DNA of 64,000 bases, taken from contig JACJGO010000001.1 in NCBI GenBank assembly GCA_014163555.1, positions 62,001 to 126,000 of the forward strand. The letters run 5' to 3'. The position numbers and the translations under genes were made by a program. A model generated the notes under the pieces. The model searched no databases and was not told the DNA's origin. It saw nothing but the letters and a program-made list of their open reading frames with translations. This DNA is from Flavisolibacter longurius (GTDB taxonomy: Bacteria; Bacteroidota; Bacteroidia; Chitinophagales; Chitinophagaceae). Positions 14,393 to 58,089 of the stretch are shown here, piece by piece (the stretch's first letter is position 1; each line of letters opens with the position of its first letter).

Positions 14393-14465
14393 AGCTGTGA
14401 GCTACGAGCCATGAGCTTTGAGCAAAAAAACTAGAAGCTAGCAGCTAACAGCTCACGGCTGCTCT
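14393..14465. repeat. inverted repeated-word element, AGCTGTGAGC type
   Basis: Fills most of the 112-nt ilvN-ilvC gap. Left arm 14393-14423 is built of variants of GTGAGC/GAGCCATGAGC. Right arm 14431-14465 is the same word family on the other strand (TAGCAGC, ACAGCTCACGGCTGC). An A-rich core of 7 nt separates them. The arms can fold imperfectly on each other. There is no T-run, so it is not a simple terminator. Confidence 0.75.
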
Positions 14466-15062
14466 CTACATATCGAAAACTTCTTCCTGTTTGTTCAGGT
14501 ATTCGTTGGCCACAAGCTCGAAGCCGGGATTGAGCTCTTCAAACTCTTTCAATTTTTCGTGGAAACCATTGCTATTTTTAATGATGGCCACCCGGGCACT
14601 GCGAACAAATTCAATCAGGCCATGTGGCTCCAATACTTTGATCAACCGATCCGTTTCTTCACGGTGACCGGTGGTTTCAAATACCGTATAATCTTTGCGG
14701 ATCACCACGGCTCTGGCACCAAACTCACGCAGTAGGCGTTCTACTTTTACCTTTTCTGCAATTTCATCGGTAGGCACTTTGTAAAGGGCCAATTCCTGCC
14801 ACACAATCTCATCGCCGGTATTGTAGTAAGCCTTCAGCACTTCCACCTGCTTTTCAATCTGGCGAACCAGTTTGCGTACCACTTCTTCCGTTTCGTTGAT
14901 GACAATAGTAAAGCGATGAATACCGTCAACTTCGGAAGGCGAGGTGTTCATGCTTTCGATATTGATCTTGCGACGGGAGAAAATAATCGCAATGCGGTTA
15001 AGCAATCCGATGGTATTTTCTGTATAAACTGTTATGGTAAATTCCTGTTTCTGCATGGCCAT
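14466..15062 (-). CDS. ilvN: acetolactate synthase regulatory subunit
   Basis: 198 aa. An N-terminal ACT domain (EFTITVYTENTIGLLNRIAIIFSRRKINIES) and a second ACT-like half after about residue 85 (ALYKVPTDE, FGARAVVIRKD, TGHREETDRLI) give the full IlvH/IlvN architecture, which binds valine and controls the catalytic subunit. The ATG follows the ilvB stop with no spacing, consistent with coupled translation. An ATG two codons downstream (MQKQ) is an alternative start. Confidence 0.95.
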   Translation of the reverse strand: MAMQKQEFTITVYTENTIGLLNRIAIIFSRRKINIESMNTSPSEVDGIHRFTIVINETEEVVRKLVRQIEKQVEVLKAYYNTGDEIVWQELALYKVPTDEIAEKVKVERLLREFGARAVVIRKDYTVFETTGHREETDRLIKVLEPHGLIEFVRSARVAIIKNSNGFHEKLKEFEELNPGFELVANEYLNKQEEVFDM

Positions 15063-16802
15063 TTATTTAAGACGTATTTCGCTGACACTGGTTCCGGCTT
15101 CCACCATCGGGAACACATTGTTCTCTTTTCCTACCATTACTTCCAGCAGGTAAGAGCCGTCGTGCGCCAGCATTTCCTGCAACGCACCTTTTAATTCTTC
15201 TCGTTTGGAGATTCGTTTTCCGGCAATGCGGTAACCTTTGGCCACCTGTACAAAATCGGGGCTTTCGATGTTTACAAACGAGTAGCGCTTGCCGTGAAAA
15301 AGTTCCTGCCACTGTCGCACCATGCCCAGAAATTCATTGTTCAGGATAAGAATTTTTACATTGATGCCGGTTTGCATAATGGTGCCCAGTTCCTGTATGG
15401 TCATCTGGAAACCCCCGTCGCCGATGATGGCTACCACAGTTCTTTCAGGTGCACCAAATTTGGCACCGATAGCGGCAGGCAGGGCAAAGCCCATTGTCCC
15501 CAAACCACCGGATGTAATATTACTTTTTGAGCTGTTGAATTTGGCGTAACGGCAGGTCACCATCTGGTGTTGTCCCACGTCGGTTACCAGCACCGCTTCA
15601 CCACCCGAAAGTTCATTCAGGTGCTTGATCACTTCGCCCATGGTCATTTGTTCGGAATCAGGATTGAGCTCAGGGAAAATGCATTGCGTTACTTCCTCGC
15701 TTTCCAGTTCTTTGAAGCGTTGTAACCAGGCTGCATGATTGCGGAATTCCACCTGCTCGGTGAGCAGAGGCAAAGTTTCTTTGCAATCGCCCCAAACCGG
15801 AACGGTTGCTTTTACATTCTTGTCAATTTCAGCCGGATCAATATCGAGGTGGATCACTTTTGCCTGCTTGGCATATTTATCCAGGCGGCCGGTCACCCGG
15901 TCATCGAAGCGCATACCCACGGCGATAAGCACATCGCATTCGTTGGTGAGCACATTGGGCGCATAATTGCCATGCATTCCCAGCATACCTACATTCAAGG
16001 GATGATCAGATGGCAAGGCACTCAGGCCCAGGATAGTCCAGGCGGCAGGAATGCCGGCCTTTTCGATAAAGGCTTTGAATTCTTTTTCGGCTTTGCCAAG
16101 GATCACACCTTGGCCAAAAATCACAAACGGCTTTTTGGCGCTGTTGATCAGGGTTGCCGCTTCGGCAATGTATTCTTTGCGTACAATGGGCTTGGGCCGG
16201 TAACTGCGAATAAAGTTGCACTTTTCGTAACCGGTATAGTCAAACTTTTGTACTTGTGCGTTCTTGGTAATATCGATCAGCACCGGGCCGGGACGGCCAC
16301 TGGCAGCGATAAAAAAGGCTTTTGCCAAAACAGCCGGAATCTCGGTAGCATCCGTCACCTGGTAGTTCCACTTGGTGCAGGGTGTGGTCATGTTAATGAT
16401 GTCTGTCTCCTGGAAGGCATCGGTGCCTAACAAGTGTGCAAACACCTGACCCGTAATGCAAACAACAGGCGTACTGTCAATCAACGCATCGGCCAGTCCT
16501 GTGACCAGGTTGGTAGCACCCGGGCCGCTGGTGGCAAACACCACACCGGTTTTACCCGAGGTACGGGCAAAGCCCTGTGCGGCATGAATGGCTCCCTGTT
16601 CGTGACGAACCAAAATATGCTCCAACGAATCCTGGAAATCGTACAGGGCATCATAGATAGGCATGATAGCGCCACCGGGATAACCAAAAATGGTCTCCAC
16701 ACCTTCCTCTACAAATGCCCGCATCACAGCTTCTGATCCACTTATGGTTTCAGTCTTCGTCTGTAACGCATCCGTCTGCGGCTGTTTTAACGTGTCTTGC
16801 AT
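15063..16802 (-). CDS. ilvB: acetolactate synthase catalytic subunit
   Basis: 579 aa TPP-dependent enzyme that joins two pyruvates, or pyruvate and 2-oxobutanoate. Motifs are [18 protein letters not shown] with [11 protein letters not shown] (catalytic Glu of the N-terminal PYR domain), a central FAD-binding domain ([11 protein letters not shown]), and a C-terminal PP domain with GDGGFQM...[12 protein letters not shown] for TPP-Mg2+. Its first 53 nt lie inside the end of ilvD in another frame. The conserved core begins at [14 protein letters not shown], about 20 residues in, so the overlapping codons encode only a variable leader ([13 protein letters not shown]). Confidence 0.96.
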
Positions 16803-18432
16803 ATTTAAATAGTATTCCTTTTTCTGCTTTCAGGGCGGGCTGCTTCCACCGGGCTTTTCGCTGCGCCAGTTCTGCATCCCCAACCTTCAGCGTAATGGTG
16901 TTAGCTGTTGCGTCGAGTTCAATGATATCGTCATCCTGCACCAGTGCAAGGGTACCGCCATCAAAAGCTTCGGGTGTGATATGTCCCACCACAAAACCAT
17001 GCGTACCACCACTGAAACGACCGTCCGTGATCAAGGCAACGGATTTACCCAAACCAGCGCCGATGATGGCCGACGTGGGCTTCAGCATTTCAGGCATGCC
17101 AGGGCCACCTTTTGGTCCTACGTAGCGAATCACGACGACGTCGCCGGCCTTTACCTTACCCGAACGGATACCCGCAATGAGTTCAAATTCGCCGTCGAAC
17201 ACCCGGGCAGGACCTTCAAATCGTTCGCCTTCTTTGCCACTGATCTTGGCTACACTGCCGCCAGGGGCCAGATTACCATAGAGGATCTGCAGGTGACCAG
17301 TTGGCTTAAGAGGATCCGTGATCGGATGAATGATCTTTTGTGCTTCGAAATCCAGCGAAGGAACGTCGGCCAGGTTCTCCGCAACGGTTTTACCGGTTAC
17401 GGTTAAACAATCGCTGTGCAAAAGGCCTTGCTCCAGCAGGTATTTCATCACGGCAGGAACACCGCCGTGCTGATAGAGATCCTGCATTAAATATTTTCCG
17501 CTGGGTTTAAAATCAGCCAGTACCGGTACCCGATTACTAATGGTTTGAAAATCGTCCTGCGTGAGTTCCACATCCACGCTTTTGGCCATTGCAATCAGGT
17601 GCAGCACGGCATTGGTTGATCCACCCAAAACCATGATCACCGTGATGGCATTCTCAAATGCCTTGCGGGTCATGATGTCTTTAGGCTTGATATCTTTTTC
17701 CAGCAGGAGCCGAATGGCCTTCCCTGCCGCCAGGCATTCATCTTTTTTCTCCTGGCTCAAGGCAGGATTCGAAGAAGAAAACGGAAGGCTCATTCCCATC
17801 GCTTCAATTGCCGCTGCCATCGTATTGGCGGTGTACATGCCACCGCAGGCACCTGCGCTGGGGCAAGATGCTTTAACGATGCAGCGAAAATCTTCTTCGG
17901 TGATGGTACCGGCAATCTTTTGCCCCAAGGCCTCAAACGCTGAAACAATATTCAGATCCTGGCCATTGTAGTGGCCTGGTGCAATCGTTCCGCCGTACAC
18001 CATAATCGCCGGACGATTGAGTCGTCCCATGGCAATAATAGAACCGGGCATATTCTTATCGCAACCCGGCAGGGCAACCACCGCATCATAATACTGGGCA
18101 CCGCAAACTGCTTCAATGGAGTCAGCAATGATATCGCGGCTGACCAGCGAAAAGCGCATGCCGTCAGTACCGTTGCTGATGCCATCACTGACGCCAATGG
18201 TGTTAAATATCAATCCTACTAAATCGTTATCCCATACACCTTGTTTGACAATCCTGGCCAGATCGTTCAGGTGCATATTGCAGGTATTGCCGTCGTAGCC
18301 CATGCTCACAACGCCTACTTGCGCTTTCTTCAGGTCATCTTCCGTCAGGCCAATTCCGTACAGCATGGCTTGTGCAGCCGGCTGGGTTTCGTCCTGCGTA
18401 ATTGTTTTGCTGTATTTATTCAGTTCAATCAT
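16750..18432 (-). CDS. ilvD: dihydroxy-acid dehydratase
   Basis: 560 aa iron-sulfur enzyme that dehydrates dihydroxy acids to 2-oxo acids for valine and isoleucine. The cluster cysteines are in [27 protein letters not shown] and, earlier, [11 protein letters not shown]. The catalytic C-terminal region has [19 protein letters not shown]. The length is usual for the family. Its ATG overlaps the ilvE stop as ATGA; its 3' end overlaps ilvB by 53 nt, an unusually long overlap for this operon. Confidence 0.96.
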
Positions 18433-19322
18433 GCTACTTGCAAGGCGGTGCGGTATTCTTTTTCCAGCACGAGGTTTTTGTATGCTTTCTGAATAGTGGC
18501 ACCCAGTGTTTCTTTCCAGGGCTTGGCAAAGGCAACCTCATCGAGCGATTGAATGCCGATCACTTCTGCCGCCGTTCCGCACATGAAAGCGCCATCAACA
18601 CCTTTGATCTCTTCGGGCCTGATTTGTCGCTGGAGGACTTCAATGCCCAGGTCATTACAGATCTCCAGCACGGTGGCCCGGGTGATGCCCGGCAGAATGC
18701 TACCCAGTTGCGGGGTATGCAGCACACCGTCTTTTTCAAAGAAAATATTGGCGCCGGGACCTTCCGCTACAAAGCCGTCCACATCCAGCAGCAGCGCTTC
18801 GTCAAAACCAAGATCTTTGGCTTCCTGCGTGGCCATGATGGAATTGATGTAGTGGCCGGAGACTTTTGCTTCCACTTTAAAAGAAGCGGGTGTGATTCTT
18901 CTGTACGAAGAGGTGTAAAGGCGCAATAATTTTTCGCCGAGATAAGCACCCCACTCCCATGCGGCCAGGAGCAATTGCGCATCCTTGCCTTTTGTCAGTT
19001 GCATGTTGGGAGGACAGGTGACCAGCGGACGGATATACGCATCGCTGAAATTGTTGCGCTTCAGCAATTCGTAAGTCAGTTCAATGAGCTCGTCTGTTTT
19101 GTATGTATACGGAATGCCAATGGCTTTCGCAGAAAACTCCAGACGATCGTAGTGTTCTTTTGCTTTAAAAATGCGGGTACCGTTTTCAGTGTTGTAGGAA
19201 CGGATGCCTTCAAAAACGGCATAGCCATAATGCAAAGACTGATCGTAAACATTGCCCCTGGCCTCAGTTGCTTTAATAAACTCGCCATTGTAATACACAA
19301 TCGTGTTCTCGTTGTAATACAT
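18429..19322 (-). CDS. ilvE: branched-chain amino acid aminotransferase
   Basis: 297 aa fold-type IV PLP aminotransferase performing the last step of Val, Leu and Ile synthesis. Motifs are [33 protein letters not shown] with the PLP lysine, [19 protein letters not shown], and [11 protein letters not shown]. The start at 19322 gives [15 protein letters not shown], matching the family's N-terminus; an 18-codon upstream extension lies in the intergenic repeat and is rejected. It overlaps ilvD by 4 nt. Group I-type BCAT by pattern; D-amino acid or aromatic activity cannot be excluded from sequence alone. Confidence 0.94.
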
Positions 19323-19361
19323 ACGTATGATTTGATTTGTGGAACGAATCAATTCAAGGCA

Positions 19362-19402
19362 AGCAATCGTCAACAATCGCCGACAGCAATCGTAGCGTCG
19401 AT
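19362..19402. repeat. repeated-word element, CAATCG type
   Basis: In the 86-nt leuB-ilvE gap. Three variants of CAATCG(T/C)C are spaced 13-14 nt apart, followed by GCGTCGATC. Only one clear arm is seen; a weak TTGATT/AATCAA inversion lies on the ilvE side. This is a different word from the other two gaps of the operon. Confidence 0.5.
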
Positions 19403-19408
19403 CTAAAA

Positions 19409-20524
19409 TCAGATTAAGGTTGACTTCCGCAGTTCAACATTGATCTGGTTAATATCGTTAGGCACACGGCCAGCGATAGATTCACTAATCAGGTCGCCTA
19501 CCGTGGAGGTAAAATAATAGTTGATCGGGTCAATGTCTTTGGTGACAAACCTGGCATCCAGCGCCCATTTCACCGCGTTGCGAACCGCAGTTGCTTCTTC
19601 AAAAAGGTTGAAATAATCGAGCAGCATCGCAGCTGATAAAATAGAACCTACCGGGTTGGCAATGTCTTTCCCGGCGGCCTGGGGGTACGAACCGTGAATG
19701 GGTTCGAACATCGCTGTTTTTACACCAACCGATGCCGAAGGCAACATGCCCAGCGAACCGCTGATCACACTGGCTTCATCGGAAAGGATATCACCAAACA
19801 TGTTTTCGGTGAGCATCACGTCAAACTGCTTTGGATTGACGATGATCTGCATGGCTGCGTTGTCCACAAACATGTAGTCAACGATTACATCAACGTATGA
19901 AGGAGCCACTTCCTGCACTACTTTGCGCCAAAGACGGGATGTTTCCAGCACATTGGCTTTATCGACTAAGGTTAACCGTTTTTTGCGTTGTTGTGCCGCC
20001 CCGAAAGCCAGGTGGGCAATGCGTTCAATTTCTGAACGGTTATAGGTGCAGAGATCAGAGGCTTCATTGCCATCTTCTGCCAGTTCTTTTTTTCCGAAAT
20101 AAATACCCCCGGTCAGCTCGCGGTAGATCACAAAGTCCACATCTTCCAGCCGGTCTTCACGCAGGGGTGAAAGATGATGCAGGCTGGGATAGGTATTCAC
20201 CGGGCGGATGTTAGCATAAAGCTGTAACGATTTACGCAGCTTCAGCAATCCCTGTTCGGGGCGCACTTTCGCCGTAGGATCGTTATCGAACTTGGGGTGG
20301 CCAATTGCACCAAAAAGAATCGCATCGCTTTGTGTGCACAATTCAAGTGTTGCATCCGGAAGCGGGTCGCCGGTTTTATCAATCGCATCGGCTCCCATCA
20401 GGCCATGACTGTAGCTAAACTGGTGGCCAAAACGTTCGCCAACCGCATTCAACACTTTGATTGATTGCGCGGTTACTTCAGGCCCGATCCCATCACCATT
20501 TATGACTGCAATGCGTTTGTTCAT
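19409..20524 (-). CDS. leuB: 3-isopropylmalate dehydrogenase
   Basis: 371 aa NAD-dependent beta-decarboxylating dehydrogenase in leucine synthesis. Motifs are VINGDGIGPEV at the N-terminus, RPEQGLLKLRKSLQLYANIRPV for substrate binding, YRELTGGIYFG, DYMFVDNAAMQII and GDILSDEASVISGSLGMLPSASV with the metal aspartates, and EPIHGSYPQAAGKDIANP for NAD. The length is normal for the family. Its start lies 3 nt after the leuD stop, so the two are surely co-transcribed. Confidence 0.96.
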   Translation of the reverse strand: MNKRIAVINGDGIGPEVTAQSIKVLNAVGERFGHQFSYSHGLMGADAIDKTGDPLPDATLELCTQSDAILFGAIGHPKFDNDPTAKVRPEQGLLKLRKSLQLYANIRPVNTYPSLHHLSPLREDRLEDVDFVIYRELTGGIYFGKKELAEDGNEASDLCTYNRSEIERIAHLAFGAAQQRKKRLTLVDKANVLETSRLWRKVVQEVAPSYVDVIVDYMFVDNAAMQIIVNPKQFDVMLTENMFGDILSDEASVISGSLGMLPSASVGVKTAMFEPIHGSYPQAAGKDIANPVGSILSAAMLLDYFNLFEEATAVRNAVKWALDARFVTKDIDPINYYFTSTVGDLISESIAGRVPNDINQINVELRKSTLI

Positions 20525-20527
20525 TGT

Positions 20528-21115
20528 TTACTTCGTGTACGATTTTTCAAATGACTCAATCTCTTCTTTCATGCTTAACAGGAAATCAATATCATCAAAG
20601 CCGTTTAGCAAACAGGTCTTTTTGTATTGATTGATAGCGAAGCTTTCGGTTTCGCCGGTGCTGTCGATGGTGATTGATTGTGCGGCCAGGTCAACGGACA
20701 AGGTCGTGCCATTGGGCTGCGCAAATATTTTCTGCAAAAAAGCTTCGCTTACCTGAACCGGCAACAGGCCATTGTTCAGGGCATTGTTGCGGAAGATGTC
20801 GGCAAAAAAGCTTGACACCACTACTTTAAATCCGTAATCGGCAATGGACCAGGCAGCGTGTTCGCGGGATGAGCCACAACCGAAATTTTTTCCGGCTACT
20901 AAAAACTCGCCTTTATACTGCGGTTGGTTCAATACAAAATCAGCTTTCGGTTTTGTTTCATCATCGGCTTCGTAACGCCAATCGCGGAACAGGTTCTTGC
21001 CAAAACCCACTTTTGTGGTTGCTTTTAAAAAGCGGGCAGGAATGATCTGATCCGTATCGATATTTTCCACGGGCAGTGGAACAAATGTGCTATGTATGGT
21101 TGTTATCGCCTGCAT
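20528..21115 (-). CDS. leuD: isopropylmalate isomerase small subunit
   Basis: 195 aa swivel-domain subunit that partners LeuC in converting 2- to 3-isopropylmalate. Motifs are [19 protein letters not shown] near the N-terminus and [15 protein letters not shown], the active-site loop, followed by [20 protein letters not shown]. The length is typical. It sits 3 nt before leuB and 103 nt after leuC, with a repeated-word element in that gap. Confidence 0.96.
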
Positions 21116-21129
21116 TGTTCTTTATGAAA

Positions 21130-21215
21130 AATGTTCAACTCTCAACAATCAATGTTCAATTTTCAAATTGTTCATTCTTTTGCCTTGACAATTGAACATT
21201 GAACATTGAAAATTC
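21130..21215. repeat. inverted repeated-word element, AATGTTCAA type
   Basis: Fills the leuC-leuD gap. Left arm 21130-21175 has AATGTTCAACTCTCAAC, AATGTTCAATTTTCAA and TTGTTCATTC. Right arm 21186-21215 has the complement as tandem copies (ATTGAACATTGAACATTG, then AAAATTC). The core is about 10 nt. The arms are near-complementary, so RNA from either strand could form a long hairpin. Confidence 0.78.
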
Positions 21216-21218
21216 TTT

Positions 21219-22622: not shown

Positions 22623-22626
22623 GTTC

Positions 22627-23796: not shown

Positions 23797-23830
23797 ACGT
23801 TTTTTTACAGATTAGGATTACGATTTTAAC

Positions 23831-23861
23831 CGGTTCAGGCAATAATTGCGTAGGTGAACCG
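23831..23861. promoter_or_regulatory. nested dyad in the leuA leader
   Basis: CGGTTCA (23831-23837) is inverted as TGAACCG (23855-23861). Inside lies a second perfect palindrome, GCAAT-A-ATTGC (23839-23849). It is 35-65 nt upstream of the leuA ATG, in the probable 5' leader. It could be an operator for a repressor of the ilv/leu operon or an RNA hairpin; the sequence does not say which. Confidence 0.5.
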
Positions 23862-23870
23862 TCTTTAAAA

Positions 23871-26047: not shown

Positions 26048-26191
26048 ATGATATGCGAATATGCGGATACATAGATATGCTGATTTAAGGCAATACAAAG
26101 TCAGTTGATTTTCCTGATTGTTAATAGATTGTTGCCAACGGTATAGGCGAATGCATATCCGCATATTGGCACATCTGCCTATCCGCACATC
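26048..26191. repeat. inverted repeated-word element, ATATGCGGATA type
   Basis: Begins directly after a stop codon and ends 40 nt before rlmH. Left arm 26048-26083 has GATATGCGAATATGCGGATAC and AGATATGC. Right arm 26147-26191 carries GCATATCCGCATATT and CTATCCGCACATC, the same words inverted. The core is about 63 nt. It shares AATATGCGGATATGC (15 nt, right arm inverted) with the element at 52.7 kb. Confidence 0.78.
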
Positions 26192-26799: not shown

Positions 26800-26863
26800 T
26801 AGAAAACGACAAACGACAAAAGAAAAACGGACAACCACAAACTACAAAACACAAACGACAAAC
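26800..26863. repeat. one-armed repeated-word element, ACGACAAAC type
   Basis: A/C-rich stretch just before the rhomboid gene: variants of ACGACAAAC, CACAAACTAC and ACAAACGACAAAC follow each other for about 64 nt. No inverted partner arm is visible. It ends 6 nt before the ATG. Confidence 0.6.
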
Positions 26864-29261: not shown

Positions 29262-29999
29262 ATGAAAATTCTAGTGTGTATAAGCAAAACACCTGATACC
29301 ACGGCAAAAATAGCCTTCACCGATAACAACACGAAATTCGCTGAAGCAGGTGTGCAATGGATCATCAATCCCTATGACGAATGGTATGCGCTGGTACGTG
29401 CCATCGAACTGAAAGAAGCCGATGCTTCCGCCTCCATTCACCTGGTAACCGTGGGTGGCGCCGATGCCGAGCCTATCATCCGTAAAGCCCTGGCGCTGGG
29501 CGGCGATGAAGCCATTCGCATCAACACACAACCACTCGAAAGCTACCAGGTGGCGTCGCTGATTGCCGACGTGGCCAAAGACTACGACCTGATTTTGCTG
29601 GGTAAAGAAACCATTGATTACAATGGCGGCGCTGTAGGCGGTATGCTGGCCGAAATGCTGGATCGTCCTTACGTGGCCAATGCCACAAGCTTCCAGCTTT
29701 CAGGTACCACGGCTACGGTTAAACGTGAAATTGAAGGTGGCGAAGAAACCCTGGAGTGTTCGCTGCCCCTGGTAGTGAGTTGCCAGAAGGGGATGGCCGA
29801 AGCCCGTATCCCCAACATGCGGGGTATCATGGCAGCCCGTACCAAGCCCCTGAAAGTGGTGGAGCCTTCCGGCAACGAAACATTCACGGAATACAAAGAA
29901 TTCCAGTTGCCGCCTGCCAAAGCCGGTGTGAAGCTGGTGTCTCCCGACAACATCGACGAACTGGTTCGCCTGCTGCACGAAGAAGCAAGAGCCATCTAA
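29262..29999 (+). CDS. etfB: electron transfer flavoprotein beta subunit
   Basis: 245 aa. It forms a heterodimer with EtfA that takes electrons from acyl-CoA dehydrogenases and passes them to the quinone pool. It starts MKILVCISKTPDTTAKIAF, the N-terminus of the Bacteroidota subgroup. Motifs are INPYDEWYALVRAIEL, VGGADAEPIIRKALALGGDEAIRI, ILLGKETIDYNGGAVGGMLAE and RIPNMRGIMAAR. AMP and FAD are bound at the interface. Its partner etfA is 226 nt downstream, an unusually long gap for this pair, filled with a repeated-word element. Confidence 0.94.
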   Translation: MKILVCISKTPDTTAKIAFTDNNTKFAEAGVQWIINPYDEWYALVRAIELKEADASASIHLVTVGGADAEPIIRKALALGGDEAIRINTQPLESYQVASLIADVAKDYDLILLGKETIDYNGGAVGGMLAEMLDRPYVANATSFQLSGTTATVKREIEGGEETLECSLPLVVSCQKGMAEARIPNMRGIMAARTKPLKVVEPSGNETFTEYKEFQLPPAKAGVKLVSPDNIDELVRLLHEEARAI

Positions 30000-30000
30000 T

Positions 30001-30220
30001 GTGCCAATAGGCAAATGTGAAAATGTGCAAATTGAAGCAGTCGTTGCACAAATGCTAAGCAGTTCTTTTATCGGTTTTGTTTTGGTCGCAAGCAGCAATG
30101 CTACTATCCAGCAACTGTTGCGTCGCACTCTTGTACATTCAGAACACTACTGAACAAAAAAGAGAATTTGAGATGAGGACATCATTTTCAAATTTTCACA
30201 TTATCAAATTTTCAAATTAC
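30001..30220. repeat. inverted repeated-word element, AAATGTGAAAATG type
   Basis: Fills the gap between etfB and etfA. Left arm about 30011-30033: GCAAATGTGAAAATGTGCAAATT. Right arm about 30164-30220 holds TTTTCAAATTTTCACATTATC and AAATTTTCAAATTAC, its complement with variation. A 130-nt core without any gene call separates them. Confidence 0.7.
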
Positions 30221-31940: not shown

Positions 31941-31944
31941 GTTT

Positions 31945-32068
31945 TCGGTTTGGGGTCTGGCGTTTGGGGTTCTTCAGGCGTAAGTCTCAAAAAACTTTCT
32001 GACTGTCATCTGTATTAATTTTTGCCAAGGCACGACACCCCCAAACCCCTAACGCCAAACCCCAAACT
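31945..32068. repeat. inverted repeated-word element, GTTTGGGGT type
   Basis: Between the DUF151 gene and ispE. Left arm 31945-31972: CGGTTTGGGGTCTGGCG then TTTGGGGTT. Right arm 32036-32068: CCCCCAAACCCCTAACGCC then AAACCCCAAACTT. The right arm runs into the TTG start codon of ispE. CCAAACCCCAAACT (14 nt) recurs in the element at 52.8 kb. The core holds a near-consensus promoter box (TAATTTTTG, about 32015-32023). Confidence 0.8.
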
Positions 32069-37018: not shown

Positions 37019-37032
37019 AGGCGGTGAAGATA

Positions 37033-37160
37033 GAGCTAGGAGGTCAAACGAGAAAAGGAGAAAAAAGGTATAAATTGAAGTTGAGATAGTAACTCCTACA
37101 TTGAAGCCTTAACCTTAACCTAAATCTCTCCCCCTCCTTTCGCTCTTTTCACTCTTAGCT
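37033..37160. repeat. inverted repeated-word element in a divergent promoter region
   Basis: Between GH13 (minus) and ispH (plus). Left arm 37033-37068: GAGCTAGGAGG...ACGAGAAAAGGAGAAAAAAGG. Right arm 37107-37160: CTCTCCCCCTCCTTTCGC followed by TCTTTTCACTCTTAGCTT, its complement with variation. The core is about 38 nt. The ispH -7 box begins at the next base. Confidence 0.72.
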
Positions 37161-45290: not shown

Positions 45291-45420
45291 GTGGTTGGTT
45301 AGTTGATTTGTTGAAAAGTTGATGAGTTGAAAGGCTGATAGATGAATCATATGAAAGGCTTAAAAATGTATTTTTAGTTTTAACCAATCAATGTAGTAAC
45401 CTACCAACTTACTCACCTCC
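45291..45420. repeat. inverted repeated-word element, GTTGATGAGTTGA type
   Basis: Fills the whole gap between the ABC ATPase and permease genes. Left arm 45291-45340: GGTTGGTTAGTTGATTTGTTG, AAAAGTTGATGAGTTGAAAGG. Right arm 45382-45424: AACCAATCAATG, CCTACCAACTTACTCACC and TCCTTAC, running into the ATPase stop codon. The core is about 40 nt. Confidence 0.75.
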
Positions 45421-47656: not shown

Positions 47657-47662
47657 CTTGAA

Positions 47663-48492: not shown

Positions 48493-48921
48493 ATGAAGAT
48501 CGTTGCTGCCTTTTTGCTCCTTTCCTTTTTTGCTTTCTGCAAACAGGATAAACCATTTCTCCCGGAAAAACCGCAACAGAAAAAAACTGTTTATGAAATT
48601 TTTGCGGCCCGCAATTATAATGGCACCCTGGTGGAAAATGTAAAAGCCGAACTGCGGTTGCAGATGCGCATCATTAACTACCAAACCGGTGAACAAAAAC
48701 TGGTTTGGGACAGCATCTTACCAGTTCGCCGTATTGCCGATTTTCCGCTTTATGATAATCGTATCATCGTAGAAAGATCTTTACCGGTTTTGAACAGCCA
48801 TCAAAAGCTGAACGGCTCCTATTCTATCATTTATCGCGAAGGCCAAACCATCAATCAGGTTGGGAGTTCCGATGAGGCAGGACCGGGTACGGATTCCGTT
48901 ATGTTGGAAGTGGATATTTAG
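48493..48921 (+). CDS. small lipoprotein, unknown function
   Basis: 142 aa from MKIVAAFLLLSFFAFCKQDKPF. The hydrophobic segment ends at Cys16, a plausible lipobox (FAFC). The mature chain is beta-rich (AELRLQMRIINYQTGEQKLVWDSILPVRRI, SYSIIYREGQT) and could be an immunoglobulin-like or small lipocalin-like domain; this is a guess. It is transcribed divergently from the metzincin-like gene with a 140-nt spacer. Fifteen more codons are open upstream but lack signal peptide character. Confidence 0.65.
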   Translation: MKIVAAFLLLSFFAFCKQDKPFLPEKPQQKKTVYEIFAARNYNGTLVENVKAELRLQMRIINYQTGEQKLVWDSILPVRRIADFPLYDNRIIVERSLPVLNSHQKLNGSYSIIYREGQTINQVGSSDEAGPGTDSVMLEVDI

Positions 48922-48985
48922 TTCGTGAGTGGTGTGAGAAGCAGACTTTTTTTTAACCTTTTTTCTATCCCAAAGATTTATTGCT

Positions 48986-50047: not shown

Positions 50048-50059
50048 ACAGGTGGGTTA

Positions 50060-50241
50060 ACGTGAAAGGTCAAACATTAGACGTGAAAATGGGTCGCTTA
50101 CAGCTCACGCCTCTCTAATTTACCAAGTATTCTTTGCAGCAGGCAAATAAAAAACGGGAGCGCCTTTAAGCTCTCCCGTTTTACGTTTACCGTTTACAGT
50201 TTCACGTCTCTTGTTTGACGTCTCACTTCTTATGTCTCACG
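50060..50241. repeat. inverted repeated-word element, GACGTGAAA type, around a terminator
   Basis: Between the cyclase and fadN-type genes. Left arm 50060-50090: ACGTGAAAGGTCAAAC, TAGACGTGAAAATGGG. Right arm 50181-50241: TTACGTTTACCGTTTACAG, TTTCACGTCTC, GTTTGACGTCTCAC, TATGTCTCACGTCC. The core holds an intrinsic terminator and ACAGCTCACG, which also occurs in the ilvN-ilvC element. The right arm ends next to the fadN-type stop codon. Confidence 0.75.
50151..50182 (-). terminator. terminator after the fadN-type gene
   Basis: AAAACGGGAG (50151-50160) pairs with CTCCCGTTTT (50173-50182), a 10-bp perfect stem. On the minus strand it is followed by TTTATTT. It lies inside the core of the repeated-word element. 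Confidence 0.85.
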
Positions 50242-50244
50242 TCC

Positions 50245-52626: not shown

Positions 52627-52708
52627 AGCAAAAAATTAGTTAGTTAAACAACTATGTCTGTGAAGATAGGAAAAGAATGGGCAAGAATGCAAATGAAGAA
52701 TAGAGAAA

Positions 52709-52870
52709 CTATGCGGATGCGTGGATATGTAAATATGCGGATATGCGAATCCGATAATTTGATAATTCGATAAGGTGATAATGGGATGATTAAAAAGCAC
52801 GAGAGCAAACGAAATAAGCAGAGCACAACCGCCTAACCTACTCCAAACGCCAGATACCAAACCCCAAACT
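52709..52870. repeat. composite repeated-word element with three word families
   Basis: Between rsmI and the fadN-type gene. Block 1 (52709-52751): CTATGCGGATGCGTGGATATG, AAATATGCGGATATGCGAAT, sharing words with the element at 26.1 kb. Block 2 (52752-52790): GATAATTTGATAATTCGATAAGGTGATAATGGGATG-type repeats. Block 3 (52842-52870): CCAAACGCCAGATACC, then AAACCCCAAACT, shared with the element at 32.0 kb. Block 3 runs into the rsmI stop codon. It appears to be a mosaic of words used elsewhere. Confidence 0.72.
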
Positions 52871-53534
52871 ATTCCTTCCCTTCCACCACAATCACGATCT
52901 CTCCTTTCACTGCTTTTTGCTTGAAATGATCGTGCACCTCCTGCAGGGTACCCCTTGCGTTTTCTTCAAAGAGTTTGGTGAGTTCGCGGCTGACAGAACA
53001 TTTACGGTCTGCGCCAAAGTACTGGATAAAATCTTCCAGCGTTTTTACCAGCCGCATGGGGCTTTCGTAAAAAATAAGGGTACGCTCTTCAGTAGCCAGT
53101 TGCGTAAGTAAGGTATGTCGGCCTTTTTTGAGGGGAAGAAAGCCTTCAAAAGCAAAGCGGTTGGTGGTTAGCCCGCTGTTGACCAAGGCCGGAACGAAGG
53201 CTGTTGCACCGGGCAGGCATTCCACCTTAATGTCATTTTTGACACACTCTCTTACCAGCAGAAAAGCTGGATCACTGATTGCCGGTGTACCCGCATCCGT
53301 GACCACCGCCATGGTTTTGCCAGTACGCAACTGGTCAACCAGGTGCTGGAGTATTTTGTGCTCGTTGTGCTGGTGGTATGGCGACAACGGCTTTTGAATC
53401 TGGTAATGATTGAGCAGTTTGGAGGTGGTACGGGTGTCTTCGGCCAGGATCACATCCACCTGTTGCAACACCTCCAGTGCCCGCAGGGTAATGTCTTTCA
53501 AATTGCCGATGGGTGTAGGAACAAGGTAGAGCAT
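52869..53534 (-). CDS. rsmI: 16S rRNA (cytidine-1402-2'-O)-methyltransferase
   Basis: 221 aa tetrapyrrole-methylase-fold enzyme. Motifs are LYLVPTPIGNLKDITLRALEVL, LAEDTRTTSKLLNHYQI, VTDAGTPAISDPAFLLVREC, CLPGATAFVPALVNSGL and FYESPMRLVKTL, all diagnostic of RsmI, which methylates C1402 in the ribosomal P site together with RsmH. The start at 53534 (MLYLVPTPIGN) is the usual N-terminus; 13 upstream codons are rejected. The length is slightly short because the C-terminal extension of some homologues is absent. Confidence 0.95.
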   Translation of the reverse strand: MLYLVPTPIGNLKDITLRALEVLQQVDVILAEDTRTTSKLLNHYQIQKPLSPYHQHNEHKILQHLVDQLRTGKTMAVVTDAGTPAISDPAFLLVRECVKNDIKVECLPGATAFVPALVNSGLTTNRFAFEGFLPLKKGRHTLLTQLATEERTLIFYESPMRLVKTLEDFIQYFGADRKCSVSRELTKLFEENARGTLQEVHDHFKQKAVKGEIVIVVEGKE

Positions 53535-53592
53535 TTCACTTGAAAATTGATACGTTGACTGGTTGGCAGGCAATGCTATACTTATCAGCCAT

Positions 53593-53850
53593 TCAACTTG
53601 TCAACGCATTCACCTCGATCTCGTAATATTCCATCACCGGGTTGGCCAGGAGTTTTTTGCTGGCTTCTTCAGCAAGGCTTTTGGCTTCCTCTTCCGAAGC
53701 AGCTTCAATTTGCAGGGAGATGTGCTTGCCTACCCGAACGTCTTCAATGGCGCCAAGACCTAAACTCTTTAATCCGCCCAAAACGGCTTTGCCTTGCGGG
53801 TCTAACAATTCTTTCAATGGCATCACATGCACCTGTACAGAATATTTCAT
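53593..53850 (-). CDS. purS: phosphoribosylformylglycinamidine synthase, PurS subunit
   Basis: 85 aa. KYSVQVHVMPLKELLDPQGKAVLGGLKSLG, VRVGKHISLQIEA and EEASKKLLANPVMEYYEIEV are the full PurS pattern. PurS bridges PurQ and PurL in the three-subunit FGAM synthase of purine synthesis. PurL and PurQ are not in the window. The gene has its own promoter box 25 nt upstream. A short inverted word pair (GTTGACTGGTTG with CAACTTGTCAAC) spans its 3' end and the rsmI leader. Confidence 0.93.
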   Translation of the reverse strand: MKYSVQVHVMPLKELLDPQGKAVLGGLKSLGLGAIEDVRVGKHISLQIEAASEEEAKSLAEEASKKLLANPVMEYYEIEVNALTS

Positions 53851-53874
53851 TGGAATGATTTATGATTTGCGCAG

Positions 53875-53882
53875 CAAATTTA
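53875..53882 (-). promoter_or_regulatory. purS -7 promoter box
   Basis: On the minus strand TAAATTTG, an exact TAnnTTTG match, 24 nt before the purS ATG. Predicted leader is about 18 nt. Confidence 0.5.
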
Positions 53883-53928
53883 GGTGAACATATTTTTTAA
53901 TCGGCCCAAAGCTTTTCAAGAGGAACCT

Positions 53929-54765
53929 TCACACAGAAAGATCAAGGGTTTTGTTGCCCTCTTTTTCAGGTGCGGATGGCGGCGTTTTGGAGAAGGCTGA
54001 AAAAATAAGATACAGCACAAAGATCAGGGGAATGGCCAGCCAGCGCAGCACAATCAATAAAAGCACCGACAGAATCAGCAGGCTATACTTGATGGTATTG
54101 TTGCTCCAGGAATAATCCTTGAATTTAAAGGCAATGAAATTCCGGTTGCACACCATCAGGTAGCTCAGGAGAATGATGGTAGCATAAAGCAGCCAGACGT
54201 TGATCAGTGCCTGCGGAATTTGAAGTGATGTCTGCCAGCTTTCCGGATCGGTATCGGCAAACCAAATGATCAGCGGGAATGATGCCACAACCAGTCCTGC
54301 AGCCGGTGAGGGCACGCCAATAAAATTTTCCGATTGATTGGTACTGACATTAAATTTTGCCAGCCGGTACGCTACAGCGCAGGTAAACAAGAAAGCAGGC
54401 AAAAGATAGGCAATTGAAACATCCAGTCCGCCCTCTCCCCTTGCATAGCCAAGACGGAGTAACTGGTACAGGATCATGCCCGGCGCCACGCCAAAGCTCA
54501 CTACGTCGCTGAGCGAATCGAGTTGTTTTCCTTTGTCCGTGGAAGCCTTCAGCAACCTTGCAACAAAGCCGTCAAAAAAATCAATAGCCGCCGCAAAGAA
54601 AATAAACAGGGCGCCCCATGCCATTTTTTCCGGGAAGAAAGGTTCATAGGTTCCGAGGCCTTCGTTCAGGATGACAATGCTCTGCCCTGTCTGCAAAATG
54701 AAAACAATGGCAATACAGCCAAAAAGCAGGTTCAGTAACGTGAAGAGATTTGGTATTTGCTTCAT
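53929..54765 (-). CDS. pssA: CDP-diacylglycerol-serine O-phosphatidyltransferase
   Basis: 278 aa integral membrane enzyme making phosphatidylserine. The CDP-alcohol phosphotransferase motif reads FFDGFVARLLKASTDKGKQLDSLSDVVSFGVAP, with DG, AR, G, D and D in the required spacing. There are about eight hydrophobic segments. MKQIPNLFTLLNLLFGCIAIVF is the typical PssA N-terminus. It acts at the inner membrane on the route to phosphatidylethanolamine. A near-consensus box (TAATTTTC) lies about 10 nt upstream of the ATG. The tail (PPSAPEKEGNKTLDLSV) is soluble. Confidence 0.93.
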   Translation of the reverse strand: MKQIPNLFTLLNLLFGCIAIVFILQTGQSIVILNEGLGTYEPFFPEKMAWGALFIFFAAAIDFFDGFVARLLKASTDKGKQLDSLSDVVSFGVAPGMILYQLLRLGYARGEGGLDVSIAYLLPAFLFTCAVAYRLAKFNVSTNQSENFIGVPSPAAGLVVASFPLIIWFADTDPESWQTSLQIPQALINVWLLYATIILLSYLMVCNRNFIAFKFKDYSWSNNTIKYSLLILSVLLLIVLRWLAIPLIFVLYLIFSAFSKTPPSAPEKEGNKTLDLSV

Positions 54766-54806
54766 CGAAAGCGAAAATTAGTCTATTTGAATGAGGATGT
54801 ATCTTC

Positions 54807-56120
54807 TTACAGTTGAATATCAGCAACCTTGTTGTTTTGCATAACGGCTTCGATTTCTTCTACCGTAATGGGAATGCCTTCAAACAAATCCACATTGCCA
54901 TCTTTTGTAATCCAAACATTGTTTTCAATACGAATACCAATGCCTTCTTCCTGAATGTAGATACCCGGCTCCACTGTCAGCAACATGCCTTCCTGCAGTG
55001 GCTCTGTCCGTGTACCCAGGTCATGCACATCAATACCAAGGTGGTGCGAAATGCCATGATACAGGTATTTGCGGTAAGCCCTGTTCTCGGGATCCTCATT
55101 TTTAAAATCTTCTTCTTTCAACAAGCCAATTTTCATGAATTGTGCGGTGGCTTCGTCGCCCACTTTCTCCGTATAATCAATGATGGTGATGCCCGGCTTC
55201 AACAGGCTTTTGGCATAATTGTGCAGGTGAAGGCAAGCGTTGTACACTTCTTTTTGCCGCTGCGTAAATTTTCCGTTCACCGGAATGGTGCGGGTAAGAT
55301 CGGCTGCGTAACCGCCGTAGGAAGCGCCAAAGTCCATCAGGATCAGCTCACCGTCTTTACACTCTTCGTTGTTGGAAACATAGTGCAGGGTTCGGGCCCT
55401 GTCGCCGCTGGCAATGATGCTGCCGTACGCAGGTCCATCGGCCCGCTGGCTGATGAATGAGTGCAAAATCTCCGCTTCAATTTCATACTCCATGACACCG
55501 GGTTGCACAAACTGCATCACCCGACGAAACGTGCTGTGCGTAATGTCCACCGCTTTTTTTACCACTTCAATTTCACGTTCCGTTTTTACGGCCCTGAGCT
55601 CTTTCAGAAGCTTTGCCGCCCGTTCGTAGTGGTGCAAAGGATAACGTGCCTTCATCTCATCTACAAAGCGGTAGTCTCTTGTCCGCACAAGACTTGCTTT
55701 GCGGTCGTTTTCATTTGTATCGAGGTAGATGGTATCTGCCAGGTGAATCCAGGGTTGCAAGAGGCCCTCCAAACTATCAAGCCACACAATGGTTTTTATG
55801 CCGCTGATGGCGGTTGCTTCTTCTTTGCGCAGACGCTTGCCATCCCATTTTTCCTTCAGCTCATTGGGACGAACAAGCACCAGCACTTCCCGGTATTTTG
55901 CATCGGGGTTATCCGGAAATAGAATCACCATGCTGTCTTCCTGGGTAATCCCGGTAAGCCAGTACAGGTCGCTGTTCTGCTTAAAAGGATAAAGGGCATC
56001 GCCGTTGCTGGGCACTTCGTCGTTGCTCACAAAAATGGCAATGCTATTGGGCTTCATCTTTTCAGTAAATCGGCCTCTATTTGCTACAAACAATTCCGGG
56101 TTCAGGGGCAAATTTTTCAT
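54807..56120 (-). CDS. pepP: Xaa-Pro aminopeptidase (aminopeptidase P)
   Basis: 437 aa M24B metallopeptidase. The N-terminal creatinase-like domain includes MVILFPDNPDAKYREVLVLVRP. The catalytic pita-bread domain has metal ligands in LILMDFGASYGGYAADLTRTIPV (two Asp), GISHHLGIDVHD (His), TVEPGIYI (Glu) and IGIRIENNVWI (Glu). It removes N-terminal residues before proline. There is no signal peptide, so it is cytoplasmic. It is divergent from pckA across 207 nt and lies 41 nt upstream of pssA, so both could share a transcript. Confidence 0.92.
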   Translation of the reverse strand: MKNLPLNPELFVANRGRFTEKMKPNSIAIFVSNDEVPSNGDALYPFKQNSDLYWLTGITQEDSMVILFPDNPDAKYREVLVLVRPNELKEKWDGKRLRKEEATAISGIKTIVWLDSLEGLLQPWIHLADTIYLDTNENDRKASLVRTRDYRFVDEMKARYPLHHYERAAKLLKELRAVKTEREIEVVKKAVDITHSTFRRVMQFVQPGVMEYEIEAEILHSFISQRADGPAYGSIIASGDRARTLHYVSNNEECKDGELILMDFGASYGGYAADLTRTIPVNGKFTQRQKEVYNACLHLHNYAKSLLKPGITIIDYTEKVGDEATAQFMKIGLLKEEDFKNEDPENRAYRKYLYHGISHHLGIDVHDLGTRTEPLQEGMLLTVEPGIYIQEEGIGIRIENNVWITKDGNVDLFEGIPITVEEIEAVMQNNKVADIQL

Positions 56121-56297
56121 GCAAGAATTTTTACAACAGCAGCAAAGTAACCGAATTAAAGAAAGTAAACGTCAAAAGAAAAAATTCATAACAACGGAGG
56201 GTAAAACCCTTGCAATCCATATCTTTTTCGCCCATGAACTTTGACGTTTCATTGTGTAAGAAAAACACGCAAAATAGGCCGTCAGTTTTTCCTGCCT

Positions 56298-56305
56298 TAC
56301 CTTTG
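56298..56305 (+). promoter_or_regulatory. pckA -7 promoter box
   Basis: TACCTTTG, an exact TAnnTTTG match, 22 nt before the pckA ATG. No convincing -33 box. Confidence 0.55.
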
Positions 56306-56327
56306 TAGCCTAAAAACGATTGCTACT

Positions 56328-57932
56328 ATGTCAGTACCTACTATTTCTTTTTCGCCAGGCGATCTGGCGAAGCTGGGATTGTCTATTTCCGACTCTATCC
56401 ATTACCAATCCACACCCGATGAACTTGTACAGGACACGATCCGTATCGGCGAAGGCAGATTGACCAGTACCGGCGCACTGGCCATTAACACCGGCAAATT
56501 TACCGGCCGTTCTCCCAAAGACAAGTTTACCGTAAAGGACGAGATTACCGCAAACACGGTGCACTGGAACAACTTCAATATTCCGATTGAAGAAAAGTTC
56601 TTCCACATTGTTCACCAGAAAATGATGGCACACCTGAGCAGCCAGCCCGAATTGTGGATTCGCGACTGCTATGCCTGTGCCGATCCCCGCTTCCGTTTGA
56701 ATATCCGAATTGTAACGGAAAAACCCTGGATCAACCTCTTTGCATACAACATGTTTCTCCGGCCTACCGAGGAAGAACTGGAGGATTTTGTACCCGACTG
56801 GCATGTGATCTCCGCCCCGGATTTAAAGCTGGATCCGGTGGAATGCGGCACCCGTCAGCCCAATGCCGCCATCATCTCTTTTAAGTACAAAACCATCCTC
56901 ATTGCCGGTACCGGCTACACCGGTGAAACCAAAAAAGGCATTTTCTCCATTCTCAATTACATTCTGCCGCAGGAGAAAGGTGTGCTGAGCATGCATTGCA
57001 GTGCGAACATGGGCCGCGCCGGCGACACGGCAGTTTTCTTTGGCCTGAGCGGAACCGGCAAAACAACATTGAGTGCTGACCCGGCCCGCAAACTGATTGG
57101 TGATGATGAACACGGCTGGACCGGCGACAATGTCTTTAATTTTGAAGGCGGCTGTTATGCCAAGCTGATCAACCTTTCTGAAGAAAAAGAACCCGAAATT
57201 TTTAATGCCATTCGCCCCGGCGCCATTGTGGAGAATGTGCAGTTTTACCCCGGCACCAACAAGATCAATTTTGATGATGGCAGCATTACGGAAAACACCC
57301 GTGTATCGTACCCGCTGCACTACATTTCCAATGCACTGGAGCCATCGATCGGCAATGTTCCGAAAAACATTTTTTTCCTGACCTGTGATGCCTATGGTGT
57401 TTTGCCACCCATTGCCAGGCTTACACCCGGCCAGGCCATGTACCAGTTTATTTCCGGGTATACGGCAAAGGTAGCCGGAACCGAAGCCGGGGTAACGGAA
57501 CCCAAGCCTACGTTCAGTGCTTGCTTTGGCGCTCCTTTTCTTCCGCTGCACCCGGGTAAATATGCCGAAATGCTGGGCCGTAAAATGGAAGAAGGAAACG
57601 TAGCGGTTTGGCTGATCAATACCGGCTGGACTGGCGGTCCTTACGGAGAAGGCCACCGGATGAAACTTTCGTACACCCGTGCGATGATCACAGCGGCGCT
57701 GAATGGCCAACTGGATAAGGTGGAAACTGAGAACGATGTCATCTTTAGGGTGGCCATCCCGAAAGAAGTGCCCGGCGTACCTTCTGATCTTTTGCAGCCA
57801 CGAAACATCTGGGCCGACAAAACAGCCTACGATGAAAAGGCCCGCTTTCTGGCCAACCTGTTTATTGAAAACTTTAAAAAATATGAGGCCGGCGTATCTG
57901 CCGAAATTCTGGCGGCCGCTCCAAAATTGTAA
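56328..57932 (+). CDS. pckA: phosphoenolpyruvate carboxykinase (ATP)
   Basis: 534 aa, gluconeogenic enzyme converting oxaloacetate and ATP to PEP and CO2. The kinase loop is FFGLSGTGKTTLSADP, preceded by SMHCSANMG and followed by GDDEHGWTGDNVFNFEGGCYAK with the metal Asp. Other motifs are RSPKDKF and GYTAKVAGTEAGVTEP. This is the ATP-dependent class, not the GTP class. The start at 56328 (MSVPTISFSPGDLAKLG) gives the standard length; an upstream open frame of 29 codons covers the promoter and is rejected. A strong terminator follows. Confidence 0.96.
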   Translation: MSVPTISFSPGDLAKLGLSISDSIHYQSTPDELVQDTIRIGEGRLTSTGALAINTGKFTGRSPKDKFTVKDEITANTVHWNNFNIPIEEKFFHIVHQKMMAHLSSQPELWIRDCYACADPRFRLNIRIVTEKPWINLFAYNMFLRPTEEELEDFVPDWHVISAPDLKLDPVECGTRQPNAAIISFKYKTILIAGTGYTGETKKGIFSILNYILPQEKGVLSMHCSANMGRAGDTAVFFGLSGTGKTTLSADPARKLIGDDEHGWTGDNVFNFEGGCYAKLINLSEEKEPEIFNAIRPGAIVENVQFYPGTNKINFDDGSITENTRVSYPLHYISNALEPSIGNVPKNIFFLTCDAYGVLPPIARLTPGQAMYQFISGYTAKVAGTEAGVTEPKPTFSACFGAPFLPLHPGKYAEMLGRKMEEGNVAVWLINTGWTGGPYGEGHRMKLSYTRAMITAALNGQLDKVETENDVIFRVAIPKEVPGVPSDLLQPRNIWADKTAYDEKARFLANLFIENFKKYEAGVSAEILAAAPKL

Positions 57933-57956
57933 AGGTTATAGATGATGAATAAATAC

Positions 57957-57987
57957 GACGGCCTCTGTTTAGAGGCCGTCTTTTTTT
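57957..57987 (+). terminator. intrinsic terminator after pckA
   Basis: GACGGCCTCT (57957-57966) pairs with AGAGGCCGTC (57971-57980), a 10-bp stem with a GTTT loop followed by seven T. Confidence 0.93.
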
Positions 57988-58016
57988 GGGAAATGAAGAG
58001 CAAGTAGCGAAGGGTG

Positions 58017-58089
58017 AGTGGTCAGCTGCTAGTAGCCAGTTAAAATGAAACATGCCTCCCAATAATCAGTAACCAATAATTAATAATTG
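58017..58089. repeat. repeated-word stretch, CAGCTGCTAG and AATAATCAGTAACC words
   Basis: Between the pckA terminator and the M1 peptidase gene. It contains GTGGTCAGCTGCTAGTAGCCAG, related to the AGCTGC words of the ilvN-ilvC element, then CAATAATCAGTAACC, AATAATTAATAATTG. No inverted partner is evident. Confidence 0.45.

Follow-up and report, generated by a model that had tools for sequence, protein, structure and literature searches.

What fills the gaps between genes in a bacterial genome, and by what process does it get there? The question is raised by a 64,000-nucleotide (nt) stretch of Flavisolibacter longurius (the window; G000:C58:62001-126000 of a 5.66-Mb genome in 58 contigs), in which several intergenic gaps hold a short word repeated in tandem, a core, and the same word repeated on the opposite strand. 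For convenience, position n of this contig is written own58:n (the window coordinate is n minus 62000), and the sister species, which shows 86% identity at the first locus compared, is called G009. Our preferred reading, to which we give roughly two chances in five, is that such gaps are rewritten at the DNA level by slippage in steps of 7-8 nt and by fold-back copying, within bounds set by selection at stop and start codons. We infer the mechanism from the anatomy of the elements, none of which was seen arising at high resolution.

Elements of the window

A preliminary description of the window lists eight two-armed elements, and all eight are present. For each, the best inverted local score is compared with those of 500 first-order (dinucleotide-model) shuffles of the same gap and of 200 coding pieces of equal length. 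No coding piece reaches the score of its element (0/200 each). Shuffles reach it in 0/500 cases at 21.2, 32.0 and 50.1 kb, in 1 each at 26.1 and 30.1 kb, in 6 at 45.3 kb, in 10 at 14.4 kb and in 18 at 37.1 kb. The elements and related arrays are as follows, with a strand (that of the G-rich word) where one is assigned.

14393..14460, two-armed element separating ilvC from the acetolactate synthase small-subunit gene; heptad AGCTNTG with its complement; RNA fold z -4.95; same word in G009
21135..21214, two-armed element with an aconitase-family gene on either side; heptad TTGAACA, the left arm being C-rich; z -3.97; same word in G009
26050..26191, two-armed element, octad GATATGCG, right arm at about 26156-26191; from the inverted-arm test
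26804..26863, minus strand, one-armed array of the heptad AAACNAC, its end lying 6 nt ahead of an ATG; from the period scan
29997..30219, two-armed element, octad AATGTGAA, core homologous in G009 and in a further genome, G006, arms not; from the scan, the inverted-arm test and comparison
31941..32067, two-armed element, heptad GTTTGGN, which is also the word in G009 and G006; z -4.65
37024..37160, two-armed element, AAGGAGA-like words, in a divergent gap; both arms GTTGATAA in G009; z -2.72
45293..45417, two-armed element, octad GTTGATNN; z -1.71
50062..50243, two-armed element, heptads GACGTGA / GTTTACN; z -5.71
52715..52869, composite of octads GATATGCG and GATAATNN, then CCAAAC heptads at right; no significant inverted pair
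58060..58088, minus strand, one-armed heptad array CCAATAA; from the period scan; no significant inverted pair

In seven of the eight two-armed elements G exceeds C in the left arm and C exceeds G in the right arm, in line with the preliminary description; 21.2 kb is the exception, and 14.4 kb follows the rule barely. The units measure 7 or 8 nt rather than the 6-12 nt proposed there. Among the one-armed or composite forms that it names, those at 26.8, 52.7 and 58.0 kb hold period-7 or period-8 arrays with no significant inverted partner, and that at 19.4 kb passes neither test. The right arm at 26.1 kb sits within an over-long open reading frame (ORF) called at 26118. The 58.0-kb gap additionally contains AGTAGCN-like words and a separate terminator-like hairpin.

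Unit length, words and polarity

In the first period scan, runs of s[i]=s[i+p] are scored in the intergenic DNA of 785 kb of the source genome (94,775 nt intergenic) and 453 kb of G009, with periods of 3-20 and an array threshold of at least 13. Intergenic arrays of the source genome number 39 at period 7 and 18 at period 8, with a further 14 and 8 at twice these periods and 2 at the remaining ones, and shuffled intergenic sequence yields 0.4 arrays over all periods. The corresponding numbers in G009 are 48, 15, 30 and 7, and 13. Coding sequence of the source genome, about seven times longer, has no peak at 7 or 8 (5 and 1 among 55 arrays); in that of G009 period 7 is the commonest as well, but with only 7 arrays.

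The enlarged sample comprises 1.18 Mb of the source genome (about one fifth of it), 0.85 Mb of G009 and 0.1-0.18 Mb from each of five other genomes. Source contigs C58 and C21, G009 contigs C33 and C22, and the pieces of G006 and G002 are taken as synteny or whole contig runs. The stretches of G016, G017, G005 (4.72-4.76 Mb) and source contigs C6 and C32 were chosen after a word-search match, and their array densities are therefore too high. Period 7 is the commonest in the source genome, G009, G016, G017, G005 and G006. The exception is G002, with seven period-11 arrays versus four of period 7 in 160 kb and no clear peak at 7 or 8; this genome carries long degenerate period-11 arrays, for example at L029:2949-3077.

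In two of the genomes sampled, each kb of noncoding DNA holds 33 and 52 nt of arrays, respectively. Four units is the most frequent length (179/411 arrays), and perfection is rare: 8/411 arrays are free of mismatches, and 5/411 are perfect with at least three copies. Two perfect heptad arrays of the source genome, (AATAACC)n at L041:160-290 and (TCCTGAC)n at L061:10378-10507, reach 18.7 and 18.6 copies, as slippage predicts.

The vocabulary is restricted: a word has fixed letters and one or two free slots, and these slots coincide from locus to locus. In the source genome and G009 combined, 131 heptad arrays make up 30 word clusters, 12 of them singletons, and 48 octad arrays make up 13, of which 7 are singletons, where orthologous arrays are counted in both species and two very long perfect arrays are excluded. 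The heptad words are roughly GTTTGGN, GTTTGTN, GTGAGTN, AGTAGCN, GAGCTNY, GCAATNN and others, and further cluster words are roughly GATATTNN, GATAATNN, GTTGATNN, GTGAACNN and others. Some words exist at both periods (GATATTG and GATATTGG; GTTATTG-like and GTTATTGG-like words), and most have no run of three G.

Same-word neighbours are inverted. In the seven genomes, 46 inverted pairs lie within 250 nt of each other and no direct pair lies 10-250 nt apart, direct pairs closer than 10 nt being merged into one array. By arm composition, 36 of the inverted pairs are G-left, 3 C-left and 7 neutral. Counts of one-armed forms are too high, because the single simple array score misses degenerate arms. 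An inverted score of at least 16 is found between the halves of the same gap in 17% of 109 array gaps, compared with 2.8% for halves of different gaps and 0.9% in direct orientation. These numbers bear on the alternative that the elements are ordinary heptamer microsatellites, i.e., decaying slippage arrays paired by chance or composition. Heptamers are the most over-represented of the 6-11 nt repeats in six of eight columns, and tied in one, in the part of a published table available to us (Huang and Mrazek 2014, PMC4060949). However, the count of 46 inverted to 0 direct neighbours already disfavours this account, and same-gap pairing far above other-gap pairing and the sharp abutment to stop codons (below) likewise stand against it. 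We therefore regard it as quite improbable.

At either edge of a gap, G-rich words point away from the flanking gene and inward. Where a gap holds a single array, arrays whose G-rich strand runs inward from the nearer gene outnumber those of opposite orientation by 24 to 7 on the left and 24 to 9 on the right in the source genome, by 30 to 5 and 16 to 6 in G009, and by 20 to 9 and 13 to 0 in the five other genomes pooled; arrays without clear G or C excess (18, 9 and 6, respectively) are omitted. Gaps with two arrays have a G-rich array followed by a C-rich one in 19, 25 and 10 cases and the reverse order in 1, 1 and 0. The one-array polarity is independent of gene direction in co-directional and convergent gaps, and the few divergent gaps show no clear preference (left 2 to 2, right 3 to 2). 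Array-free gaps have at most a third to half of the skew (GC skew within 0.10 of zero, versus 0.20-0.32 in size).

The preliminary description has the elements filling gaps from stop to start, which is by and large correct. On the stop-codon side, 142 arrays lie in the half of the gap adjoining the stop; 66% of them overlap the stop codon or come to within 5 nt of it with their outer edge, versus 12% under random placement, and 78% lie within 10 nt, versus 24% expected. The abutment is partly built in, because many words contain stop codons and ORFs can end inside arrays; 50 of the 142 overlap an ORF end. However, 61 of the remaining 92 begin 0-10 nt past the stop codon, and these are not accounted for by in-word stop codons. 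On the start side, the first in-frame ATG is within 10 nt for 41% of 123 arrays versus 18% of 906 controls; genes are called as greedy longest ORFs, and distances to start codons are therefore rough. Divergent gaps hold the fewest arrays (13/146 in the source genome, 12/113 in G009; 33/201 to 33/110 in other gap classes).

This depletion, by about half, would fit arms kept by selection as RNA hairpins, whether as terminators, transcript-end protection or intercistronic processing sites, but it is not seen in the small sample of G017 (4/18). Folding points the same way for six of the eight two-armed elements (14.4, 21.2, 30.1, 32.0, 37.1 and 50.1 kb), with z between -2.1 and -5.7, as does a two-armed AGTANNN/TACTNNN element in the gap after ilvC in 5 of 19 Mucilaginibacter loci inspected, the others having other words or none. 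Against this, 45.3 kb folds weakly (z -1.7); the z of 0.0 at 26.1 kb comes from sequence folded without the right arm and is uninformative on the element. In 73 co-directional gaps among 100 with strong inverted pairs, arm mismatches on the transcribed strand are 79 G-U, 85 A-C and 238 other. G-U is not in excess over A-C, and selection on RNA pairing is therefore not supported; we reject an RNA hairpin or intrinsic terminator as the selected feature on this wobble test. Moreover, polarity and position are independent of gene orientation, one-array gaps are common, the 50.1-kb core encloses a separate terminator-like hairpin (50151-50182), and a hairpin needs no tandem words. Retention of the arms as RNA hairpins is thus unlikely. 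Rfam models give no match in the window at gathering score.

Word changes between species and possible mechanisms

Of 104 orthologous gaps of the source genome and G009, 35 have an array in either species: 15 in both, 5 in the source genome only and 15 in G009 only. All 15 of the last group are longer in G009, by a median of 62 nt. Arm scores were compared within and between species in eight gaps picked by eye. In four (own58:76353, 83115, 93940 and 146357) the word is kept, and scores across species are about those within. In the other four the words differ. At own58:160537 (GATAATNN versus GTTTGTN) the scores are 21 and 19 within species and 4 and 9 between them, and at own58:140955 they are 16 and 13 within and 8 and 7 across; no shuffle of 200 reaches the within-species score in either species at either gap. 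At own58:99018, the 37.1-kb element, they are 12 and 18 within and 6 and 7 across (source arms reached by 6/200 shuffles), and at own58:139427, 16 and 11 within and 6 and 6 across (G009 arms by 13/200). The word thus differs in both arms at once in two clear cases and two weaker ones. Read by eye, the 26.1-kb gap has three different words in the source genome, G009 and G006.

The 30.1-kb core has a match in both G009 and G006 (0/500 shuffles each), but the AATGTGAA arms have none (77 to 301 of 500). Both relatives have GTTTGGG words at the right edge of this gap and lack the two-armed element (best score 9 each). The same core contains, at 30117, the motif GTTGCGTCGCACTC, which is dispersed and in many copies precedes TTGTACGTTC-like sequence. 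With up to one mismatch it occurs 8 times in 1.18 Mb of the source genome and 8 times in 120 kb of G005 (loci L037-L040 and L277-L278), and the reversed motif 0 times in both.

In 16 orthologous arrays, substitutions number 38/323 at fixed positions, 40/149 at free positions and 283/1062 in the rest of the gaps. We do not count this as constraint, because the source arrays were selected as periodic, which hides changes of the source lineage at fixed sites; in addition, 13 of 29 candidate arrays were dropped (2 for want of comparators, 11 because they could not be aligned or fell below 70% identity), and some of the alignments retained look doubtful.

The neighbours of the elements are ordinary genes. 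Ten proteins were looked up, element neighbours among them, with products including ilvC, the acetolactate synthase small subunit, aconitase-family genes, an ETF subunit, a bifunctional-nuclease-domain protein, an amylase, an ABC-2 membrane protein and a hydroxyacyl-CoA dehydrogenase. Elsewhere in the window, 7116-11869 contains three ORFs, one with 7TMR-DISM and histidine kinase domains, that have no match in the regions fetched from five relatives; both flanking genes match in G009.

In the reading that we prefer, the elements are degenerate tandem arrays of 7- or 8-nt units, many of them in convergent inverted pairs occupying the unconstrained part of the gap. A G-rich word would grow by slippage with a step of 7-8 nt. 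A fold-back template switch would then copy the array, inverted, to the other side of the gap across the existing core. Insertions entering coding sequence, promoters or starts would be lost, and the survivors, to judge from their positions, would end at stops and near starts. Units would turn over, and at times the whole element would be replaced by one of another word; here the difference between orthologous gaps is observed, and replacement is its proposed cause. The process would act on DNA and need no function at the RNA level.

Slippage with template switching on hairpins had been suggested in the preliminary description, and as an origin it is reasonable: same-word partners are inverted only, and a few elements have near-exact arm copies. 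The longest exact match averages 12.0 nt between arms of the same gap and 9.8 nt between same-word arms elsewhere (mean rank 0.70, 0.5 expected), in the 24 of 46 elements with at least four comparators; the other 22 had fewer. The excess is moderate and driven by few near-exact copies, e.g., 21 nt at L223:15868 (G000:C6). Some elements thus look freshly copied, and most look turned over or written separately.

Several results weigh against this reading, and simple in-place slippage leaves two of them, recurring words and coinciding free slots, unexplained. The order of units in one arm is on average not mirrored in the other (0.858 versus 0.855 for permuted units in the first test; 33 of 36 elements testable, two with P under 0.1). 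Words recur across loci although same-word arrays at different loci share little unit order (longest match 14.15 versus 13.94 nt permuted in the source genome and 16.21 versus 15.31 nt in G009, with one permutation per array), and such arrays are therefore unlike recent copies of each other. Slippage and mutation predict random positions of free slots, but the slots coincide across independent same-word arrays (679 versus a null maximum of 543 in the source genome, 988 versus 810 in G009; 0/1000 permutations each), a signal to which word clustering and rotation could contribute slightly. The test covers clusters of at least four arrays, 8 clusters with 54 arrays and 8 with 61, respectively. 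Source-only array gaps are longer in the source genome in only three of five cases, and slippage with copying gives no reason for 36 G-left versus 3 C-left pairs. Slippage and fold-back thus leave three features unexplained: the dictionary common to the loci, the free slots and the constant polarity.

These features are what a trans-acting writer of words would give. A polymerase with a short, heritable set of templates would extend both 3' ends at a broken or opened gap, adding a fixed word of 5-6 nt and one or two untemplated letters. G-rich words would then run inward from both sides, with the same word but independent fill in both arms and a dictionary common to loci. In accordance, the one-array polarity is equal in co-directional and convergent gaps, unit positions are either fixed or free, the same word is found with little shared unit order between loci and often between arms, and the dictionary is lineage-specific (GTGAGTN in 7/18 genus genomes; GTTTGGN in 8/244 family genomes, 6/101 genera). 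However, there is no candidate enzyme. The reverse transcriptase RVT_1 is found in 6/18 genus genomes and not in the array-bearing G006 and G016, and the Y1 (IS200-type) transposase, which has a match in 14/18, gives none in G002, a 100% complete genome with period-7 arrays. Neither is retained as required machinery, although no correlation was computed over these 18 genomes. In addition, a single extended break would not leave arms that differ around a conserved core of about 150 nt, as at 30.1 kb, and some arms are near-exact copies including the free letters. We therefore hold such a writer to be doubtful. More doubtful still is the broad form of the idea, in which Bacteroidota, and perhaps Xanthomonas and cyanobacteria, would carry a trans-acting activity that writes 5-6 fixed and 1-2 free letters from both gap edges with a heritable, lineage-specific dictionary, and periodically erases gaps and rewrites them with a new mirrored word.

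Non-autonomous mobile elements of MITE or REP/BIME type with variable ends would account for inverted ends, intergenic sites and the longer gaps in all 15 G009-only cases. At E<=1e-6, 39 of 111 array gaps of the source genome match elsewhere in its own sample. However, 72 of the 111 do not, and the 14 longest of the matches inspected are either dispersed repeats of another kind or elements that have the word in common but not the spacer. The elements have no fixed ends or core and little unit order common to loci; their description as not transposon-like stands. Near-identical full-length copies with empty sites in a relative were not seen, although no systematic search was made. With the Y1 transposase also not found in G002 despite its period-7 arrays, mobility is highly improbable. 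Among specific candidates, REP/BIME with RAYT transposase is rejected because loci have no common sequence and array-bearing G002 has no Y1 match, and MITEs because words are common to loci with little sequence order and without fixed terminal inverted repeats; dispersal of whole arrays between loci is unsupported in the source genome, with a slight excess in G009. Separately, a repeat of about 370-540 nt with 72-80% identity occurs in at least four places in the source genome (L235:15912-16719; G000:C21:115888 and 206937; G000:C58:423353), at two of them in array-bearing gaps.

Spread in Bacteroidota and relation to known repeats

Similar arrays are found beyond the genus. At 80 ilvC loci of named, mostly Bacteroidota genomes, noncoding arrays peak at period 7 (32), followed by 14 (18), 8 (14) and 9 (7). 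They are found in Mucilaginibacter, Cnuella and others, with differing words; 33 of the 80 loci were inspected individually, 19 of them in Mucilaginibacter. The octad CTTTGCGN occurs in 15/296 phylum genomes from several Bacteroidota families (for example genomes G648, G679 and G699). Inverted pairs of it about 60-180 nt apart in other Bacteroidota have identical free letters in both arms in two of four cases, a further point against a writer. Similar strings presumably occur in cyanobacterial genomes.

The DNA between bacterial genes is commonly taken for regulatory sequence with neutral filler. In the present case words with a step of 7 or 8 and constant polarity account for a noticeable part of it, and the mirrored word can differ between orthologous gaps. 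If the process is mutational, it would be a measurable error mode of replication or repair with a 7-8 nt step and fold-back copying; if the words are written, it would be a DNA-synthesising system not known so far. On either reading, the long-standing puzzle of the heptamer excess in prokaryotes becomes open to direct tests.

Heptanucleotide repeats of cyanobacteria are named STRR. In the open-access literature, without most subscription papers, we found no description of the many-word form in Bacteroidota, nor of single-array gene-to-gap polarity, stop-codon abutment or word switches.

The excess of heptamers, together with slippage tied to a 7-nt polymerase contact, is credited to Mrazek 2007 (cited in PMC4679880 and PMC4692102). 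Those counts concern perfect repeats, whereas the arrays here are mostly degenerate and often paired (PMC4060949, PMC4679880, PMC4692102). Heptamer-derived satellites are also reported in bacteria (PMC6749651). Like our elements, the cyanobacterial heptanucleotides include more than one word per genome, three in one case in Calothrix, but few inverted pairs are reported for Nostoc (PMC4692102). TAACTGA repeats, described from Beggiatoaceae, Cyanobacteria and five Bacteroidetes (MacGregor 2015, PMC4679880), are likewise intergenic heptads near start codons with a patchy distribution; they differ in having a single word that is nearly always direct (169 direct sets and one indirect in the genome studied). 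The BrickBuilt MITE of Porphyromonas shares the phylum, the intergenic location and tandem repeats with inverted ends, but is one fixed family with 23-nt units (PMC4596501). REP/BIME is a fixed palindromic family with a conserved end tetranucleotide (PMC3733652).

The closest relatives are the GGGNATC heptads of Xanthomonas (Rehm et al. 2015, PMC4692102), which are intergenic, have a free letter in the consensus and mostly four units, form 70 and 75 convergent inverted pairs in two genomes, are few in divergent gaps, and vary in length and sequence between close species. With intergenic heptamer repeats already described in many bacteria, and convergent pairs in Xanthomonas, the class is not nameless, although the preliminary description recognised no named one. 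Both systems consist mostly of intergenic 7-nt tandem units, to which the source genome adds octads, and both have convergent pairs of G-rich strands, reported as the invariable arrangement in Xanthomonas and seen here as 36 G-left, 3 C-left and 7 neutral pairs. In place of a single G-quadruplex-type word, however, two genomes here have about 30 heptad and 13 octad clusters, together with word switches in orthologous gaps and a measured abutment to stop codons. The elements are a many-worded variant of the known intergenic heptamer repeats.

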